Shown here: piece by piece, positions 11,424 to 19,986 of the stretch
How positions within the stretch are numbered: the stretch's first letter is position 1
How the letters are laid out: each line of letters begins with the position of its first letter
NCBI GenBank assembly: GCA_018436725.1
Contig: JAHDKT010000028.1
Coordinates: forward strand, 1-64,000
Length of the DNA: 64,000 nucleotides
Origin: Synergistaceae bacterium
Lineage (GTDB): Bacteria; Synergistota; Synergistia; Synergistales; Aminobacteriaceae
Direction: 5' to 3'
Position numbers and translations under genes: made by a program
Notes under the pieces: model-generated
Databases searched by the model: none
The model's input: only the letters and a program-made list of their open reading frames with translations
What the model was told of the DNA's origin: nothing

Positions 11424-11432
11424 TGGTATAAT
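11424..11432 (+). promoter_or_regulatory. Extended -10 promoter (TGG-TATAAT) of the CHAT operon
   Basis: A perfect TATAAT with an upstream TG lies past the rpsI terminator and 41 bases before a small ORF. The -35 is weak. Confidence 0.6.
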
Positions 11433-11472
11433 TTCAAACGATCCAATTGTCTTTCATGTACAGGGAAATTTT

Positions 11473-11622
11473 ATGTTGAAAGACGGTTCAATACCGCTAT
11501 TCTTTGTGTTCGTCTCTGTCGCTGTCTTATCTCTATGGTTCCTAAGAAATTTTTTCGGGATTCCTGGAAGAAGCTCTGACGGATGTCGGGGTCGGAATGC
11601 GAGGAGGGAGTGGGCGCTTTGA
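11473..11622 (+). CDS. Small single-pass membrane protein (49 aa), first gene of the CHAT operon
   Basis: This short ORF is preceded by an AGGGA ribosome site. The protein starts with a short polar segment (MLKDGS). A strongly hydrophobic stretch follows (about residues 7-28, rich in Phe, Val and Leu), then a basic Gly/Arg-rich tail. That profile is expected for a small inner-membrane protein and unlikely by chance in GC-rich DNA. It lies between a good promoter and the DUF4384 gene, 49 bases before it. I do not recognise the family. It could be an anchor, a regulator or a leader peptide. Confidence 0.45.
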   Translation: MLKDGSIPLFFVFVSVAVLSLWFLRNFFGIPGRSSDGCRGRNARREWAL

Positions 11623-11671
11623 TTCCTGGATTCGCAAAGAGTTCCGGGAAAAATAACAGGAGGTGTTCTGA

Positions 11672-12760
11672 ATGAGAAGAGTATGTAGGATTCTCTTGGG
11701 CGTGTTCCTGGCGGTTCTTTGCAGTACGGTGCAGGCTCGTGCGGATGTCCTTCCACGCACGACGACGGCGACCCGTGATATCGTGCTCGTCGAAGAATTC
11801 GAGGAGGAAGAGACGAGCAAAGCTGCCGAAGAGACGAAAACAGGGGAAGCCGTGCCTGCCGAGGTCGGCAAGAAGTCCGGTATAGATGGAGAGGAGAAGG
11901 CCGCGCGTCTGGGCGTCGAGGAGATGCATAAAACGGACTTCGTTCTGTCCCTGGAATCTGGAAGAGCCGCGGAAGGAGATATTTACGAGATCGGCGACAA
12001 GATCGAATTCATCTTTACATCCGACAAGGACTGCTATGTGACACTTTTGAACTTTACCCCTTCGGGACATATCTATGTACTCTTCCCGAACAAATGGGTG
12101 GCGGACAACTTCGTGAAGTCGGGCGAGCGAGTCCTTGTTCCCGCCGCCGGGCAGAAGTTCTCCATGAAACTCGGAGGCCCTGCCGGTGTCGACATCGTCA
12201 AGGCCATTGCGACCAACGTGAAGACGCAAATCGTCGACCCGGAAAACCAGAAGCTCTTCGGCCCGTTCTCCGTCCTGGAGGATCCCAAAGTTGCGACAAG
12301 GGACATCATCCTTTTCGAAGAAGAACCGGAGCCTTCGGCCGCGGCGCCGGCAGCCCCCCTTGAGTGGGCGGTCGCATCTCTGGCTGTCTTTACAAAAGGG
12401 GACTCTCCGGAGAAGGGCGGATTCGGCACGGCGGTCGAGGACGGCTGGATCGTCAAGATCTGGGCAGACAGGGATTCTTTCCTGACGGGGGAATCCATCT
12501 TCGTGAAGCTTCAGAGCAATCGCCCTGCGACGCTCCTCTCGCTCGTGAATACCGGGGCGAGCGGGAGGGAGAATATTCTCCTCCCGGAAGGCGTCGAGAA
12601 ATCCGTGGTCCCCGGAGCCATCGCCATTCTTCCGGGCAAGCAGGACAAGTGGAAGCTGATCGCCGCCTCGGAACCGGGGGTCGATGTGCTGACAGCCGTG
12701 CTCAGGGACGAGGCCGGCAAGGAAATGAAGGTCTCGTTCAGTATTACTGTCGAGGAATAG
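11672..12760 (+). CDS. Exported protein with two DUF4384-like domains
   Basis: This 362-residue protein has a signal peptide (about 1-24), an acidic linker, a DUF4384 domain (about 95-200; ...DCYVTLLNF...GHIYVLFPN...), a second acidic linker, and a related second domain (about 255-360). Each domain is preceded by almost the same motif, ATRDIVLVEE (residues 33-42) and ATRDIILFEE (208-217). DUF4384 domains are often fused or linked to caspase-fold peptidases, in keeping with the CHAT protease two genes downstream. An AGGAGG site sets the start. Its biochemical role is unknown; a surface-exposed binding or scaffold role is an inference. Confidence 0.75.
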   Translation: MRRVCRILLGVFLAVLCSTVQARADVLPRTTTATRDIVLVEEFEEEETSKAAEETKTGEAVPAEVGKKSGIDGEEKAARLGVEEMHKTDFVLSLESGRAAEGDIYEIGDKIEFIFTSDKDCYVTLLNFTPSGHIYVLFPNKWVADNFVKSGERVLVPAAGQKFSMKLGGPAGVDIVKAIATNVKTQIVDPENQKLFGPFSVLEDPKVATRDIILFEEEPEPSAAAPAAPLEWAVASLAVFTKGDSPEKGGFGTAVEDGWIVKIWADRDSFLTGESIFVKLQSNRPATLLSLVNTGASGRENILLPEGVEKSVVPGAIAILPGKQDKWKLIAASEPGVDVLTAVLRDEAGKEMKVSFSITVEE

Positions 12761-12777
12761 GGCAAGAAGATTCGCAG

Positions 12778-12807
12778 GAAGCGGGTGAAGAAGCCTTCTC
12801 CCGCTTC
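12778..12807 (+). other. Intercistronic stem-loop
   Basis: GAAGCGGG (12778-12785) pairs with CCCGCTTC (12800-12807) with no real T-run after it. It may be a weak attenuator or an mRNA-stabilising hairpin between the DUF4384 gene and the next gene. Confidence 0.4.
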
Positions 12808-12892
12808 TTCTGCATATATTGTCCGCTGTGTGCCGACGTTGGGCGAACGAGAGCGGAAACGCTCGCGGAGGTTTATGAGGAGGGTGCGTGCA

Positions 12893-13912
12893 GTGTCCCG
12901 AAAAACTTTTCTTTGGACTGTGACAGTGCTTCTGCTGCTGGGGGCCGGACTCGTCATCGCGCAGATGGCGCTTGACGCCCTGGCTTTGAATGAAACGTCC
13001 GTTGCCGCGGAGACTCAGGAGCTGCAGGGAGTTCAAGGCGCGGACGAGACCACGATGGTGGTGCAGAAGACGAAGATGCAGAAGAGCGGCGCGGCGGGAA
13101 AGAAAGCATCCGCCTCTATGGATGAGATTCACAAAAAGAAACTCCCGGAATACCGCACAATCAACGGAGCTTTGGATACCCAGAAGAAGCTGTACAGCGC
13201 GCAGCGCGAGAACGATCCTCAGGCGTCCCGTTTGGCGGCGGCCTTGAAAAAAGAGATTCCCCGAGCCAAAGAGTCTTTGAAGAAACTGCGCGGGCTCACC
13301 GACCAGGAGATTGCGCTGATCAAATCCACGACGAAGGACGCTCAGGCGATCAAGGTTGCCGAGTCGTCCTATGCATCGTGGAAGAGCGCGGTGGATCACC
13401 TGAAGGAACAGCCTCTGACCGATAAGGAGTTGAAGGCGCGGAACGAGGGGATTCGGAAAAATTCGGAGGTCGCTGTTGCGAATGCGCACGACCAGGCGAA
13501 GACGGTAAAATCGGAAGAGCTTGCCCCGGAGGACAAAAACGTGCTGAAGAGCAATGTCGTCGGCGGCGCGAAGAATATCTTCTCCAACCTCCAGCAGATC
13601 ATGAATAACATGCAGTCCGTGATGAACGCGCTCGGAGGGGTGTCCGGAGGGGCGGGGCTCAACATAAACGCCCTTCAGGGGCTTGGAGGCGCATTCCAGG
13701 GGGTGGCGAAGCAGATGCAGGGCTTCCTCGGTACGTACGGTCCATTCGCCCAAACGGTAGGCGCGCTGGTCGGCGAACAGATCTCCGTTCCGGCGCTCTC
13801 CATACCCGACTTTTCGAGCATGGTGAAAATGGGCGGCGGATCGGTCTCCTCCGTCCCGTCCACTCCTTCCGTCCCGTCGGTACCCGGAGTGAAGTTCAAG
13901 CCGCCGTTTTAA
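12893..13912 (+). CDS. Membrane-anchored or secreted protein with Gly-rich amphipathic C-terminus
   Basis: I do not recognise this 339-residue protein. An N-terminal hydrophobic segment (about 5-24) is a signal peptide or anchor. Residues about 40-190 are charged and probably helical or coiled coil. From about 200 to 290 the sequence is rich in Gly, Ala, Met and Gln with amphipathic character (VMNALGGVSGGAGLN, GALVG). The end is a Ser/Pro/Val low-complexity tail (VSSVPSTPSVPSVPG). The GTG at 12893 lies 9 bases after AGGAGG. It sits between the DUF4384 and CHAT genes, so it may be a partner or substrate of the protease. Membrane insertion by the Gly-rich part is a guess. Confidence 0.6.
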   Translation: MSRKTFLWTVTVLLLLGAGLVIAQMALDALALNETSVAAETQELQGVQGADETTMVVQKTKMQKSGAAGKKASASMDEIHKKKLPEYRTINGALDTQKKLYSAQRENDPQASRLAAALKKEIPRAKESLKKLRGLTDQEIALIKSTTKDAQAIKVAESSYASWKSAVDHLKEQPLTDKELKARNEGIRKNSEVAVANAHDQAKTVKSEELAPEDKNVLKSNVVGGAKNIFSNLQQIMNNMQSVMNALGGVSGGAGLNINALQGLGGAFQGVAKQMQGFLGTYGPFAQTVGALVGEQISVPALSIPDFSSMVKMGGGSVSSVPSTPSVPSVPGVKFKPPF

Positions 13913-13948
13913 ACCGCGCCGAGGTGCGGACTGAAAGGAGGCGGGGGC

Positions 13949-16900
13949 ATGAGGAAGAAGACATCCGGGACAGCGGCGTTGATGCTGTTTTTGGCGTGTA
14001 TTTTCCTTTCTCCGGGGGGCGTTTTTGCCGCCTCCAAGGGCGAGGAGGAGCTACAGAAAGGATTGCAGCGCTACGCCGCGAAGGAGTACGTTCCTGCCGC
14101 CGTTCATTTCGGAAAAGCGTCGGCGCTTCTTGAAAAAGAGAAGAAGTTTCTGCTTGCGGGAGATGCGGCATATAACAAAGGATTGAGCAGAAGAAGCGCT
14201 CCGTACGACGCGGGAACCGCCTCCGCGGAACGTGCTGCGGCTGTTCTTTCCGCCTTCGACCGTTCCGCGGCGTTGTACGTCAAGGCCAAGGACGAAACGA
14301 AGGCGGCGAACGCATTGCTCCAGGGCGCGCAGACAGCTCTCGCGGCCGCTCGGCTCTCCGATGCGGAAACTCGCTACGCTGAAGGGCTTTCAAAAGCCAA
14401 GAAACTCAAATCAGAACTTCTCCAGGGGCTCTCTCTTGAGGGGCTCGGAAAGGTTGCGTTTCAGCGCGCACGCGTCGGCGAGAGCCGGAAATTCTTCAGC
14501 GATGCGCTGGAGCGGCTGCATTCGATTCCGACTGCCCGTTCGAGAGTGGCCTTGCAGCTGGTTGCGACGCTCAGAAAATCAGGGGATATGCCTGGAGCGC
14601 TCGATCGGCTGGATGTGGCGGAAAGGGAACTCGTCTCCTTGGAGAACGACGAGAAAACCCGGAATATTGCAGGGTTGCTGCGCTTTCTTCTGCTCGCTGA
14701 ACGAGGGCATACGTATCTGCAGATGGGGATTTTCCACAAAGCGCAGGAGTACTTGCAGGAAGCGCTCGAGGTGGACCAAGGCAACGCGATGATCAGCGAG
14801 GAGAACCGGCTGAGCGTCGAAGGGAACAAACTGGTCGCGGAAGGTGAGCTTGGCAATCCTGTATTTTCAGCGGATGCTCTGGAGGCGCTCCGCCGGGTTG
14901 CAGAGGGCAGAGGGCTGCGAGACTTGGAGTGCGCGGCGCTTATCTCCAGGGGAAGACTGCTGCGCGTCGACGGTAAATACGCCGAGGCCATGCTTGCCTT
15001 CGAGAACGCCTCCGCGAGCGCGCGCGAGGCGGGTCTTTCCAACCGCTCTATGCAGGCGGTGCTGGCCAAGGCGAACCTTATGTACTTCCAGGGAATGTGG
15101 AAGGCAAGCGAGAACGCGTACAGAATGGCGTTCAACGGGGCGCTCGAACAGGGGGACATGGAATCCGTGCTCGTCTCCCTCATGGGAGTCGAACGCATCG
15201 CCAGGGCGAACCATCTGGGCATGTCCGGCAAGATGGACTACCGGAAGATGCAGGGAATCCCGTGGAAGGGGGCGCTTCTTCAGGAGAAAAACGTCCTTCC
15301 CGTACGCGGAGGCAATGCCCTGCCGATGGCCTGGAGAAGGCTCGGCGAGCTGTCCAGAGAATGGTTTTCCTCATCGGAGCCCGGCTTGAGAGGCGCGCTT
15401 GCCGTAGAGGCCGCTGCGGAGACGCTTTCATGGAACCGTATGAAGAACATGGCGCGTCATCTTGTCGCCGAAGGGGTGCTCAGGCTCGTCACCGGACGAG
15501 AGGAGACATCTGTTCGGGCTGCGGAGGCGCTTCGAGCGATGGAGAACGCACGCGCGAACGCAGCGGACCCCGAGGCCTTGCGGCAGGCCTATTCCGCCTG
15601 CTGGGACGCACTCGCGCACGCTGCCGGAAAGGGACTCCTCGGAAAAAAAGGAGAGCTTCCGGAGATTCGGACCGACGGTATTCTGCCGGTTCCCGAACCG
15701 GGGGCCGTCGCCTCGGACGGAACGTCGATACCGGCGTCCTCCTCGGAAACACAGCGTTTGCTGTCGACGCTTGTAGAGGCGCTGAACGCCCTCTCTCTCA
15801 AGGAAAAGGAGCAGCGCGCGGTCATGCTTCACTTGCTGCGCGGGGAGCCTCTGCCCGATATTCTGGCGTCCAATCTGTTCCGCGCGGCGGGCGCACGGGC
15901 GGCCGACCGCTCCGGAAAGATGGAGACCCGTCTTGCAGGAGAAGGAGCGAAGGCCGATACCGCCCGCAAGGAGCTGGCGGGAGTCCTCTTCGATGTTCTC
16001 GAACGCTTGGGGAGTTCCCCTCTTGATGAAATCCGCGGGAACGACAAGCTGGCGAAGTACGTCAAGGGAATAGAAAGCGAGTCCAGGGAAGAACGGGCGC
16101 AGCGCGCAGAGGCGCTCGCGTCGTCGACTCCTCCCTTTGTCGTCTACACTCTGCGCGAAGCGGCCGCTCTTTCGGATGTTCACAGCGCATGGAGAGGCAT
16201 CTCTCTTCGTGTCGTTCTTCTGCGGCGGCTGGGGGTTCTCGGCGAAGCGAAGGAGATGCCTCTGCGGCAGGGGGTGGATCACCTTGTCGGATCTTTGGCA
16301 AAGGGAGCGGAGGTTTTCGAGAAGCGTTTCGCGCTCTCCGAAAAAGAGCCGCCCGCGGAGCGGGAGAAGAAGATTGCACAGATGCTCTCGTTGGCGAAGG
16401 ACTTGGTTCGTACGGAGCTTCAGACGCAACTCGTGCAGTGCCGGGCCGTCGCCGACGCTCCCGAGGGGGCCGTCGGATTCGACGACAGGCAGGCCTTGAA
16501 GGAGCTTGTCGCGAGGTATCTGCTTGCTCTCGGCGAAACGAAGGAGGCGATGAACGTCGCGGAGGCTGTCAGATCGGCTTTCGGCTTCACCGCGAGAAGC
16601 GCGGGAGGGACGCCGAACCCGGAAGTTGTCTGGAGAACGCTTTCAGTTTCCGCGAAGGCGGCTCTTTCCTCGGGGGATGTTCCGGCCGCTTTGAAATTTC
16701 TTGACCAGGCGATAGAAGTGATGGAATCCGTCTCCCCGTCGGACGGTACGAATTCGCAAGCGACGGCCGACAAGCTGGAGGTGTACCGCACCGCGATCGA
16801 GACTGCGTTCCGCCTGTACGCCGAGTCCCCGACGGAAGAACATGCCGCTATGCTCTGGAGATACCTTGAGGGGATGAAAAGCCGGCAGTGGAGGGAGATG

Positions 16901-18313
16901 CTTGCGACGACGGGCGCCGCGTTCCTCGACCGTCTGCCGGAGAACGAGGGGGCGCGCTACAGGTCGCTCAACATGGAGGCGGCGCAACTCCTGGCGAAGA
17001 CGGCGTTTCTGGATTTGCGCGGACTCGTGAAAGAAGCGGACGAGGCCCGGAACGAACTTCAGGATGTACGCTCCTCGCTGAGAGAAATAGCGGGACGGCA
17101 CACTGTAGACGCAGCGCGGCGCATTCCCTCGCTCAAGGATGCGTCCGAAGCGCTCCACCCGGACTGGGCGGCGGCGAACTACTATCTCTCCCGGACCCTC
17201 TCCTTCGCCTTCGTGCTTGAAAAAGGGAAATCGCCGCGTCTGGTACGGCTTCCGCTCGACTATGACAGCTTCTTCGTGTATACCCTCTGGATGCGGACGC
17301 TTCCGGATGCGGTGGAGTTCCAGTCCGTACGTTCGAACGAGGCCGTCATGGCCGCGGGGGTAACGTCTCCGCGGCTTGCGGAGCAGCTCTTCGACCCGGT
17401 GGCGAAGCTTCTGGGGGAAAAGAAAAAGCTCTTCGTCATTCCCCACGACCTTCTGTACACTTTCCCGTACGAAACGATGTCGGTGGAGAAGGGGGGCAAG
17501 TGGCGCTATCTTCTGGACGAAGGATGGACGTTTGCCGAGCTTCCGAGCGCGTTTCTGCTTGATACAACGGATTCGAGGGAACGGAGCGGAGGAAAAAAAC
17601 GGCTCGTCGTAATGGCCGACCCGGAATACTACCCTATGCTGCGAAAAAAATTGGGCGCGGACGAGGCCCGGAAAGTACTTCTCGCCGGCGTCGACAATCC
17701 TCTGGTACAGCAGATTCGGGAGGCCTTCTGCAAGTTTATGGCGCCGCTCCGGAACGCACGCCGTGAAGGTCGGTACCTTGTGGAACAGTGGAAGGGATTC
17801 GGAGATGTGCGCTCGCTGATGGGCGCCGACGCCTCGGAGAAGATGCTCTACGACCCGGGGACCAAGGTGTGGGAGGCGCACCATGTGCATATCGTGTGCC
17901 ACGGGTACGACAGGAACAGCATTCCGGATCTTCAGCCGGGCCTTGCCCTCTCTCCGGTCGACGACAACGAGAACGATTCGTTCGCGCAGATGGGGGAACT
18001 CGCCGCGCTTCGCTGGCGTTCCGAACTCGTCGTGCTCTCCGCGTGCGATACGGGGCTGGGCGATCTCTTCATCGGCGACGGGATGGTCGGGCTGAACACC
18101 GTATTCCTCGCCGGGGGCGCCAAGGGGATGCTCATCTCCAGGTGGCGGGTACCGGACGAGAGCGCTCCGGACTTCATGAAGGTCCTCTATGCACGTATCG
18201 TTGCGGGAGAGCCGCCTGTCGACGCCCTCTCCTCTGCGAAGCGAGAGCTGAAAAAGACATACGAAGAAGCGTCCCACTGGGCGGTGTTCAAATATGTCGG
18301 TATTCCCTGGTAA
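13949..18313 (+). CDS. Secreted TPR-CHAT caspase-family protease
   Basis: This 1454-residue protein has a signal peptide (about 1-27), a very long helical repeat region of TPR type (about 30-1050, with Ala-rich 34-residue-like repeats), and a C-terminal CHAT peptidase domain (about 1110-1454). The caspase-type dyad is present: His1318 in HIVCHGY and Cys1366 in LSACDTG. The GGAKGMLISRWRVPD segment and the final AVFKYVGIPW are also typical. CHAT proteins are caspase relatives (clan CD); most described ones, such as the type III-E CRISPR protease, act in the cytoplasm, whereas this one carries an export signal. A GGAGG site precedes the ATG. It is the core of a five-gene operon. Confidence 0.88.
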   Translation: MRKKTSGTAALMLFLACIFLSPGGVFAASKGEEELQKGLQRYAAKEYVPAAVHFGKASALLEKEKKFLLAGDAAYNKGLSRRSAPYDAGTASAERAAAVLSAFDRSAALYVKAKDETKAANALLQGAQTALAAARLSDAETRYAEGLSKAKKLKSELLQGLSLEGLGKVAFQRARVGESRKFFSDALERLHSIPTARSRVALQLVATLRKSGDMPGALDRLDVAERELVSLENDEKTRNIAGLLRFLLLAERGHTYLQMGIFHKAQEYLQEALEVDQGNAMISEENRLSVEGNKLVAEGELGNPVFSADALEALRRVAEGRGLRDLECAALISRGRLLRVDGKYAEAMLAFENASASAREAGLSNRSMQAVLAKANLMYFQGMWKASENAYRMAFNGALEQGDMESVLVSLMGVERIARANHLGMSGKMDYRKMQGIPWKGALLQEKNVLPVRGGNALPMAWRRLGELSREWFSSSEPGLRGALAVEAAAETLSWNRMKNMARHLVAEGVLRLVTGREETSVRAAEALRAMENARANAADPEALRQAYSACWDALAHAAGKGLLGKKGELPEIRTDGILPVPEPGAVASDGTSIPASSSETQRLLSTLVEALNALSLKEKEQRAVMLHLLRGEPLPDILASNLFRAAGARAADRSGKMETRLAGEGAKADTARKELAGVLFDVLERLGSSPLDEIRGNDKLAKYVKGIESESREERAQRAEALASSTPPFVVYTLREAAALSDVHSAWRGISLRVVLLRRLGVLGEAKEMPLRQGVDHLVGSLAKGAEVFEKRFALSEKEPPAEREKKIAQMLSLAKDLVRTELQTQLVQCRAVADAPEGAVGFDDRQALKELVARYLLALGETKEAMNVAEAVRSAFGFTARSAGGTPNPEVVWRTLSVSAKAALSSGDVPAALKFLDQAIEVMESVSPSDGTNSQATADKLEVYRTAIETAFRLYAESPTEEHAAMLWRYLEGMKSRQWREMLATTGAAFLDRLPENEGARYRSLNMEAAQLLAKTAFLDLRGLVKEADEARNELQDVRSSLREIAGRHTVDAARRIPSLKDASEALHPDWAAANYYLSRTLSFAFVLEKGKSPRLVRLPLDYDSFFVYTLWMRTLPDAVEFQSVRSNEAVMAAGVTSPRLAEQLFDPVAKLLGEKKKLFVIPHDLLYTFPYETMSVEKGGKWRYLLDEGWTFAELPSAFLLDTTDSRERSGGKKRLVVMADPEYYPMLRKKLGADEARKVLLAGVDNPLVQQIREAFCKFMAPLRNARREGRYLVEQWKGFGDVRSLMGADASEKMLYDPGTKVWEAHHVHIVCHGYDRNSIPDLQPGLALSPVDDNENDSFAQMGELAALRWRSELVVLSACDTGLGDLFIGDGMVGLNTVFLAGGAKGMLISRWRVPDESAPDFMKVLYARIVAGEPPVDALSSAKRELKKTYEEASHWAVFKYVGIPW

Positions 18314-18374
18314 ACGCTCCATTCAGTCGCCGCTTTTCGGAGAGCGGTCAATCCTTTCAAGGAGGCTCGGTATC

Positions 18375-19865
18375 GTGAAAAAAAACGGAATAGCATGCGC
18401 GCTTCTTGTCCTGACGCTCTTGATCTGTGCGGCGGGAACGGCCTGTTCCTCTGAACTTCTGCGCGAGCGGGCGAAAAACCTCTACAGCGTCCAGGACTAC
18501 CGGGGAGCGTTCGCTCTTTTCGAACGACTCCTCGGCGAGGTCCCGGGGGACGGCGAGGCCCTGGATTACTCCGCATGGTGCCTGCGCTACCTCGGCGACT
18601 GGAAGAGCGCCGAGGAACGCTTCTTTCAGGCGCTCGACGCTCCTTCCGGCGCCTTGACGAGCTGGATTCACGTCGGACTCGGCGAGACGTATCTCGGCGC
18701 GGGAGATGAACGCAAGGCGATTCTCTCCTTCCGGAAAGCGATCGAGAGCGCCCCGGAGGACGAGGAGCTGTATCTTCGTTCATCGAAGGGGATTGCCTGG
18801 GCCGCCGCATTTCTCGGCGAGAGAGAGGAATACGAGCATGCGCTCTCTTCGATCAGAGAGAAGGACGGAGAGTTCGCCGCCGCAGTGGCGGGCGACACCG
18901 GCGCGGTGCTCGAGGAGCGGGCCGCGCTTCGTGCAGGCAAGGAGACCTCCGACGAACCGGTCGAACCTGTTCTTGTTCTGGACACTGTGGAACGCCATGC
19001 GAAACTCTTCGAGGAAGAGTCTTTAGAAAAAGAACTGGACGAAATCCTTTCCGAAGTTCTGGTGCAGGACGAACCGACTCCATCGGCCGATGTCGCGGAG
19101 ACGAAGGAAAAGGAACAGGAACAGGAGCCCCTTGAAATCGTGGTACTGGAGGACGTTATAAAAGGCGGCGACGCGGCGTCGTCAGGTGTGAAGGAAGCCG
19201 GCCCGGGGGAGCTTCAACCCGAGGCGCGGGTGGAGCCGACGCCTGCGCACGAGGCTTCCTCGGAAAAACCCAAGGACGACGCGGCGCCCGTACCGCCGAA
19301 GCCGGTAAAAAAACCGGCTGAGAAGCTTCCGGCCTCGAAGCCTGTGCAGAGCGGCGTGCTCGCCTCGCCGCCGTCCGCTGTATGGGGCGTCCGCGTAGGC
19401 GTGGCGCTCGACGAAGAACTCGCGAGGGCGGAAGGCGAAGGAATCGACCTCGACAGGGAGAGCGCCGCCGACAAGTACGGAGTGCTGCACTTCGCGTTTA
19501 CTCCGAATGCAAGCCCTTTCCCGTCTTCCGTCCGTGCGCAGGCGGCTTCGGAGTTCTATCATATCGAAGGGTACAAAGGGTCCGTCCTGAAAGTTCGGGG
19601 TATGGTGAAGACGAAACCGCTGCCCAAGCCCCTCGAATGGAAGAAGGCGACTTTCGACGCTTTTGTCGCGGAGTTCTCCAAAGAGCACGGCAAACCGGCG
19701 ATCCTGACCGATCAGGGGACCTCCTCGGAGGTCGCTTGGCTCCTCCCCGAACGACGTGTTCTCTGGGTTTTCGTCGACGCGGGGCTCGATAATACCTGCC
19801 AGGTACAGCTGTCGTACGTGGACAGGAGAATCCAGGCGGGCCACCTCATCGGGATTTTAAAGTAA
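18375..19865 (+). CDS. Exported TPR protein with acidic linker and unknown C-terminal domain
   Basis: This 496-residue protein has a signal peptide (about 1-23, ending in a GTAC that could be a weak lipobox), TPR-type repeats (about 25-165), a long Glu/Pro/Ala-rich linker (about 190-335) and a compact C-terminal domain (about 340-496) I do not recognise. The GTG at 18375 lies 9 bases after AAGGAGG; the in-frame ATG at 18294, inside the CHAT gene, is less likely. As the last gene before a strong terminator, it is probably an adaptor for the CHAT protease. Confidence 0.7.
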   Translation: MKKNGIACALLVLTLLICAAGTACSSELLRERAKNLYSVQDYRGAFALFERLLGEVPGDGEALDYSAWCLRYLGDWKSAEERFFQALDAPSGALTSWIHVGLGETYLGAGDERKAILSFRKAIESAPEDEELYLRSSKGIAWAAAFLGEREEYEHALSSIREKDGEFAAAVAGDTGAVLEERAALRAGKETSDEPVEPVLVLDTVERHAKLFEEESLEKELDEILSEVLVQDEPTPSADVAETKEKEQEQEPLEIVVLEDVIKGGDAASSGVKEAGPGELQPEARVEPTPAHEASSEKPKDDAAPVPPKPVKKPAEKLPASKPVQSGVLASPPSAVWGVRVGVALDEELARAEGEGIDLDRESAADKYGVLHFAFTPNASPFPSSVRAQAASEFYHIEGYKGSVLKVRGMVKTKPLPKPLEWKKATFDAFVAEFSKEHGKPAILTDQGTSSEVAWLLPERRVLWVFVDAGLDNTCQVQLSYVDRRIQAGHLIGILK

Positions 19866-19890
19866 CGAAGAGGGCGCGCTCCGCTCGCCG

Positions 19891-19929
19891 CGCCTGCCTC
19901 CGCATTCGACGGGAGGCAGGCGCTTTTTT
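19891..19929 (+). terminator. Rho-independent terminator of the CHAT operon
   Basis: CGCCTGCCTCC pairs with GGGAGGCAGGCG, followed by a T7 run. Confidence 0.9.
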
Positions 19930-19986
19930 TCGGAGCCCCCCGCCCCGGAAAAAAGATCGTGCCTCCTGCTCCTCGATCTATGAGTC

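Follow-up and report, generated by a model that had tools for sequence, protein, structure and literature searches.

What does a TPR-CHAT protease do when it is encoded with a signal peptide and a set of exported companions? The CHAT/separase-type proteases studied so far act inside cells, where partners switch them on, and in the case of Craspase the specific substrate is encoded next door. Here we analyse a locus in a 64,000-nt stretch of DNA from a Synergistaceae bacterium (contig JAHDKT010000028.1, positions 1 to 64,000; the window), in which a transcription unit at 11424-19929 encloses four genes for proteins predicted to be exported or membrane-anchored. We favour the reading, with a probability of about one half, that they form a regulated protease of the envelope that acts on its co-encoded DUF4384 partner or together with it; its role is more likely to lie in envelope signalling or quality control than in digestion.

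The unit is delimited on one side by an extended -10 promoter, which is conserved, and on the other by a strong terminator. The promoter element, TGGTATAAT (11424-11432; this and all features below are on the forward strand), lies immediately 5' of DUF4384 in each of the four congeners compared (G001-G004, with one mismatch in G003), and the sequence 5' of it differs in G002 and G004. Upstream, the rpsI terminator sets the unit apart from the ribosomal genes rplM-rpsI; downstream, ahead of a gene for an EamA protein, an intrinsic terminator (19890-19930) joins a 12-bp stem at 19890-19923 to seven U (-28.5 kcal/mol, z -3.7). Between these boundaries lie genes for a double-DUF4384 protein of 362 aa (11672-12760), preceded by a conserved Shine-Dalgarno sequence, CAGGAGGTG; a membrane-anchored helical protein of 339 aa with a Gly/Pro-rich C-terminus (12893-13912); the TPR-CHAT protease of 1454 aa (13949-18313); and a TPR protein of 496 aa with an acidic/Pro-Lys linker and a C-terminal domain (18375-19865). 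Two of the starts reflect correction: that of the anchored-protein gene was moved to GTG 12893 on the basis of its Shine-Dalgarno sequence and of the A2 orthologues, and the last gene, whose product has TPR matches and orthologues in module loci, begins at GTG 18375 after AAGGAGG, not at ATG 18294 within the CHAT gene.

The initial annotation had proposed five membrane or exported products between a single promoter and a single strong terminator. Both boundaries are borne out, as are the two DUF4384 domains (two PF14326 stretches, at 81.6 and 28.2 bits against a cut-off of 27) and a second TPR protein at the end of the unit, TPR repeats being present in the CHAT protein as well as in the last gene. 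The count of products is not: four genes carry conserved signals, whereas the 49-aa ORF at 11473-11622, read as a membrane peptide, was rejected as part of the module because no relative encodes a homologue and because the rpsI-DUF4384 gap of ~150-170 bp leaves no room for it in G001 and G003.

The four genes are a real module. Among 188 Synergistota genomes, the anchored protein is present in 17, DUF4384 in 16 and the full CHAT family in 15, a count that leaves out weaker CHAT or TPR matches. CHAT, DUF4384 and anchored proteins occur together, on one strand, in 15 of the 188, spanning three families and several genera (co-occurrence Fisher p 4e-19 to 3e-21, values that overstate the evidence given the non-independence of related genomes). 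Indeed, a phylum-wide search with Pfam's DUF4384 profile hit module-type proteins only, all 16 genomes with a match having it in such a protein. Gene trees of the CHAT, DUF4384 and anchored proteins show no well-supported conflict, and their pairwise distances correlate with an r of 0.89. Furthermore, a scan of named genomes with two exact peptide patterns, by which distant versions would be missed, returned 12 loci, all in Synergistota. The possibility that gene order might not extend beyond close strains was raised from the outset; the gene set is kept across genera and families, but the exact order is not, the usual arrangement elsewhere being anchored-DUF4384-TPR-CHAT-TPR and a different one occurring in G083, in G008 and in the window's own genus. 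In three congeners the module occupies the same chromosomal locus adjoining rpsI, and no hypervariable gene is found within it.

The assembly that holds the window (G000) measures 4.78 Mb with 7% contamination, and its relatives are smaller, mostly 2-3.3 Mb; the window is syntenic with congeners, and the module therefore does not stem from contamination by another phylum. One Synergistaceae genome, G024, harbors two divergent module copies (L032 and L036). In three genomes the module has further exported genes of unknown family on its flanks (L034:911-5372, L037:21-3844 and L125:14903-17995). Such additional genes next to the module in G012, G007 and G160 were considered as core components and set aside, since one of them has a relative in 22 of 188 genomes, in most cases away from the module.

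The module is probably extracytoplasmic and putatively periplasmic, as judged from its sequences. N-terminal signal sequences, assessed by inspection and conservation rather than by SignalP, are predicted for the DUF4384, CHAT and TPR proteins and are kept across orthologues: each N-terminus runs from basic through hydrophobic to small-residue cleavage regions, the TPR segment being similar to the other two, with predicted Sec cleavage between ARA and DVL in the DUF4384 protein and predicted cleavage between VFA and ASK in the CHAT protein. The pattern is retained in orthologues that are otherwise ~30% identical in CHAT, and these hydrophobic segments sit at the N-terminus in orthologues too, which argues against their being internal segments mistaken for signals. 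At its N-terminus the anchored protein has a hydrophobic helix (peak mean hydropathy 2.2) that is conserved, whereas no cleavage site is, and it is therefore read as a membrane anchor. Synergistota are diderm, and thus the periplasm is the likely compartment. The suggestion in the initial annotation of a proteolytic system outside the cytoplasm is supported by these conserved signals, by co-occurrence within the phylum and by the invariance of the catalytic dyad.

The same annotation treated an exported CHAT protein as unusual. The signal is conserved here, but of six TPR-CHAT proteins encoded on plasmids five also have signal-peptide-like N-termini (those of Calothrix, Aulosira, Oscillatoria, Shinella and Variovorax; a short one from Nostoc lacks it), and two Synergistota have an exported TPR-CHAT without the module; an exported CHAT is consequently less exceptional than had been implied. 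The cyanobacterial and proteobacterial proteins resemble ours in combining such an N-terminus with TPR and a C-terminal CHAT domain, at 25-28% CHAT identity, and no annotated DUF4384 or anchored-protein gene is found in the six loci inspected. The two Synergistota, from another family, encode TPR-CHATs of ~1060 aa with a hydrophobic N-terminus and have neither the DUF4384 nor the anchored protein (L038:6457-9648 and L040:8914-12105). Exported TPR-CHATs are thus apparently widespread and uncharacterised, and an answer for this locus would inform many unstudied genes; here, the exported set and its doubly-motifed partner narrow the exported-CHAT question to four proteins and two residues.

The initial annotation had described His1318 and Cys1366 as intact in a 1454-residue CHAT protein. 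Residues 1142-1451 match the CHAT family PF12770 at 149 bits (Pfam cut-off 24), and both residues are invariant in 12 of 12 complete orthologues, at identities down to ~31%. Together with their surrounding motifs they rank among the most invariant positions of the protein, in which Asp1167 and Asp1403 are invariant as well. The Peptidase_C14 profile of orthocaspases (C14) has no match in the CHAT protein, for which Pfam lists CHAT. In an AlphaFold2 model of residues 700-1454 (pLDDT 71, pTM 0.73; our models are moderate overall, at pLDDT 71-73), the best structural matches are the Craspase TPR-CHAT (8d9g, E 3e-12), Csx29, human and yeast separases and SAVED-CHAT; the TM-scores are modest at 0.3-0.4 and therefore support the fold class, not its fine geometry. 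The search also matched 8rot (E 2e-8), an entry for DdvA that its depositors label a transmembrane anti-sigma factor. In addition, a weak profile match (E 0.05-0.1) aligns Cys1366 with Craspase Cys627.

This conservation bears on the possibility that the CHAT domain is enzymatically silent, its protease fold kept for binding and the four proteins serving as an envelope scaffold. The very large TPR scaffold and the DdvA match would suit such an arrangement, which we nonetheless consider improbable: His1318, Cys1366 and the motifs near them are highly invariant, as would be expected under selection for catalysis.

If the enzyme is active, the DUF4384 protein offers the most conspicuous candidate for what it meets. 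Its sequence contains, twice, the motif (A)TRDI[VIL]L with acidic residues after it: ATRDIVL at residues 33-39 (codons 11768-11788) and ATRDIIL at residues 208-214 (codons 12293-12313). TRDI is invariant in both copies in all 17 orthologues of a 17-row alignment, and the hydrophobic residues and acidic tail beside it are conserved. Copy 1 falls in an AlphaFold2 linker with pLDDT below 50 and copy 2 in or beside another, residue 212 alone lying outside the listed low-confidence segments; within these linkers, invariant positions number 8 of the 14 in the motifs and 0 of the 59 others. TRD[IVL] was not found in the aligned CHAT or anchored proteins. A third match of the ATRDI DNA pattern in the genome, just 5' of an aroA-like gene, was treated as chance, ~1.7 chance matches being expected for so specific a pattern given the size of the genome. 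Invariant short motifs in flexible linkers usually point to a binding site or a cut site. A structural search with the DUF4384 model gave only generic beta-sandwich matches (arrestin, RbmA), the anchored protein has no Pfam or PDB match above threshold and belongs to no known family, and profile searches of solved structures with the two proteins returned nothing.

By analogy with Craspase TPR-CHAT/Csx29 and separase, the TPR-CHAT enzyme may stay inactive by default, with its helical-repeat scaffold sensing the partner or signal that releases it. Once triggered, the CHAT domain would act on a dedicated, co-encoded partner, most likely the DUF4384 protein by way of the two motifs in its flexible linkers, which could either be cut (after Arg, the P1 residue in separases too) or serve for docking; tethering of the assembly to the inner membrane would fall to the anchored helical protein, and the TPR protein may serve as adaptor. 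A narrower version, which we put forward tentatively, makes the system an envelope counterpart of Craspase and separase, in which a scaffold-controlled CHAT cuts the secreted DUF4384 protein at both TRDI sites, a regulated switch for which the module itself supplies anchor and adaptor. Cleavage at TRDI is attractive because CHAT substrates are commonly encoded by neighbouring genes (PMC9729208) and because separases cleave after Arg (PMC4626109).

Perhaps, instead, the motifs are for docking and the DUF4384 protein is no substrate: TRDI would then be a linear motif that binds TPR grooves, in the CHAT protein or in the TPR adaptor, and so holds together a multivalent complex in the envelope, while the protease cuts some other target there or beyond the cell. 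Short peptides are common ligands of TPR domains, and most loci have two TPR proteins with the module. Moreover, motif 1 sits ~10 residues from the predicted mature N-terminus, where a cut would release little, such that docking fits this copy better than cleavage, and the conserved hydrophobic and acidic surroundings of TRDI agree with a binding surface. We regard docking without cleavage as possible yet less probable than the favoured reading of a protease that acts on or with the DUF4384 protein, as the habit of CHAT substrates to be neighbour-encoded runs against it (PMC9729208) and an invariant Arg-Asp also suits a clan CD protease site.

A role in conflict or defence, by which an exported protease kills phage-infected self or neighbouring cells, draws on the action of CHAT proteases in CRISPR type III-E, SAVED-CHAT and gasdermin systems, on the patchy presence of the module (15-17 of 188 genomes) and on its two copies in G024, but it is doubtful and nothing favours phage defence: a PADLOC search gave a weak TPR match only (E 0.02), no notable PHROG phage-family match or relative on viral contigs was found, the module contains no gasdermin, cyclase, Cas or toxin/immunity gene, the rpsI-adjoining locus is shared by three congeners without a hypervariable gene, and the predicted signal peptides would place the module outside the usual site of phage sensing.

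Several characterised systems can be compared with the module. Craspase TPR-CHAT/Csx29, the best solved-structure match, likewise pairs a TPR scaffold with a C-terminal CHAT domain and a His-Cys dyad, and its substrate Csx30 is encoded by the neighbouring gene (PMC9729208); however, it is cytoplasmic, about half as long and under gRAMP-crRNA control, whereas the module CHAT has a predicted signal peptide. No gRAMP (Cas7-11), Csx30/Csx31/RpoE or cas gene is present among the module genes and flanks. Separase (C50) shares a long helical-repeat scaffold with a caspase-like domain, as well as cleavage after Arg of the kind proposed here for TRDI, but it is eukaryotic and has no detectable sequence match to the module CHAT. 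Furthermore, the position of its P1-Arg reader (D2151 in C. thermophilum), placed by spacing and by alignment to Craspase K670, corresponds to Pro1407 here; with no acid at this position in either protein (Lys670 in Craspase), Arg specificity is not predicted from it, although two acids of the module CHAT, Asp1167 and Asp1403, are invariant. Gasdermin-activating bacterial proteases resemble the module in that a caspase-like or CHAT enzyme acts on a co-encoded partner, yet ours is predicted to be exported and neither the module nor the adjacent genes have a gasdermin Pfam match. The MoxR/STAND NTPases with EAD adaptors of ternary and STAND conflict systems are absent from the module genes and immediate flanks.

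That DUF4384 proteins recur beside caspase-fold enzymes, as initially proposed, is borne out: 16 of 16 Synergistota genomes with DUF4384 have it in a module-type protein, and on a Rhizobium etli plasmid (L148:4848-8448) an exported DUF4384-OmpA protein lies beside exported caspase-family and trypsin-like proteases. This may be a parallel module, but its protease is of the caspase family rather than CHAT, its DUF4384 protein has an OmpA-like C-terminus (by inspection) and TRDI was not found in that protein. DUF4384 also accompanies orthocaspases in cyanobacteria (PMC8283722), and N-terminal helices or signals, together with extracellular domains, were noted earlier in prokaryotic metacaspases (PMC3501461). 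Full-text searches of a limited library found no paper that combines a CHAT domain with DUF4384, and the fixed four-component exported set with a double-TRDI partner appears to be undescribed.

Two further observations concern the surroundings of the module in G083. Adjoining it is a divergently oriented gene for an exported trypsin-like protein with Sel1 repeats (L030:11706-13550). Also in G083, an NrdJ-type ribonucleotide reductase gene (L030:14200-17895) holds an apparent intein, a block bounded by PCVTGDTW and VHNC that includes a LAGLIDADG-like stretch.
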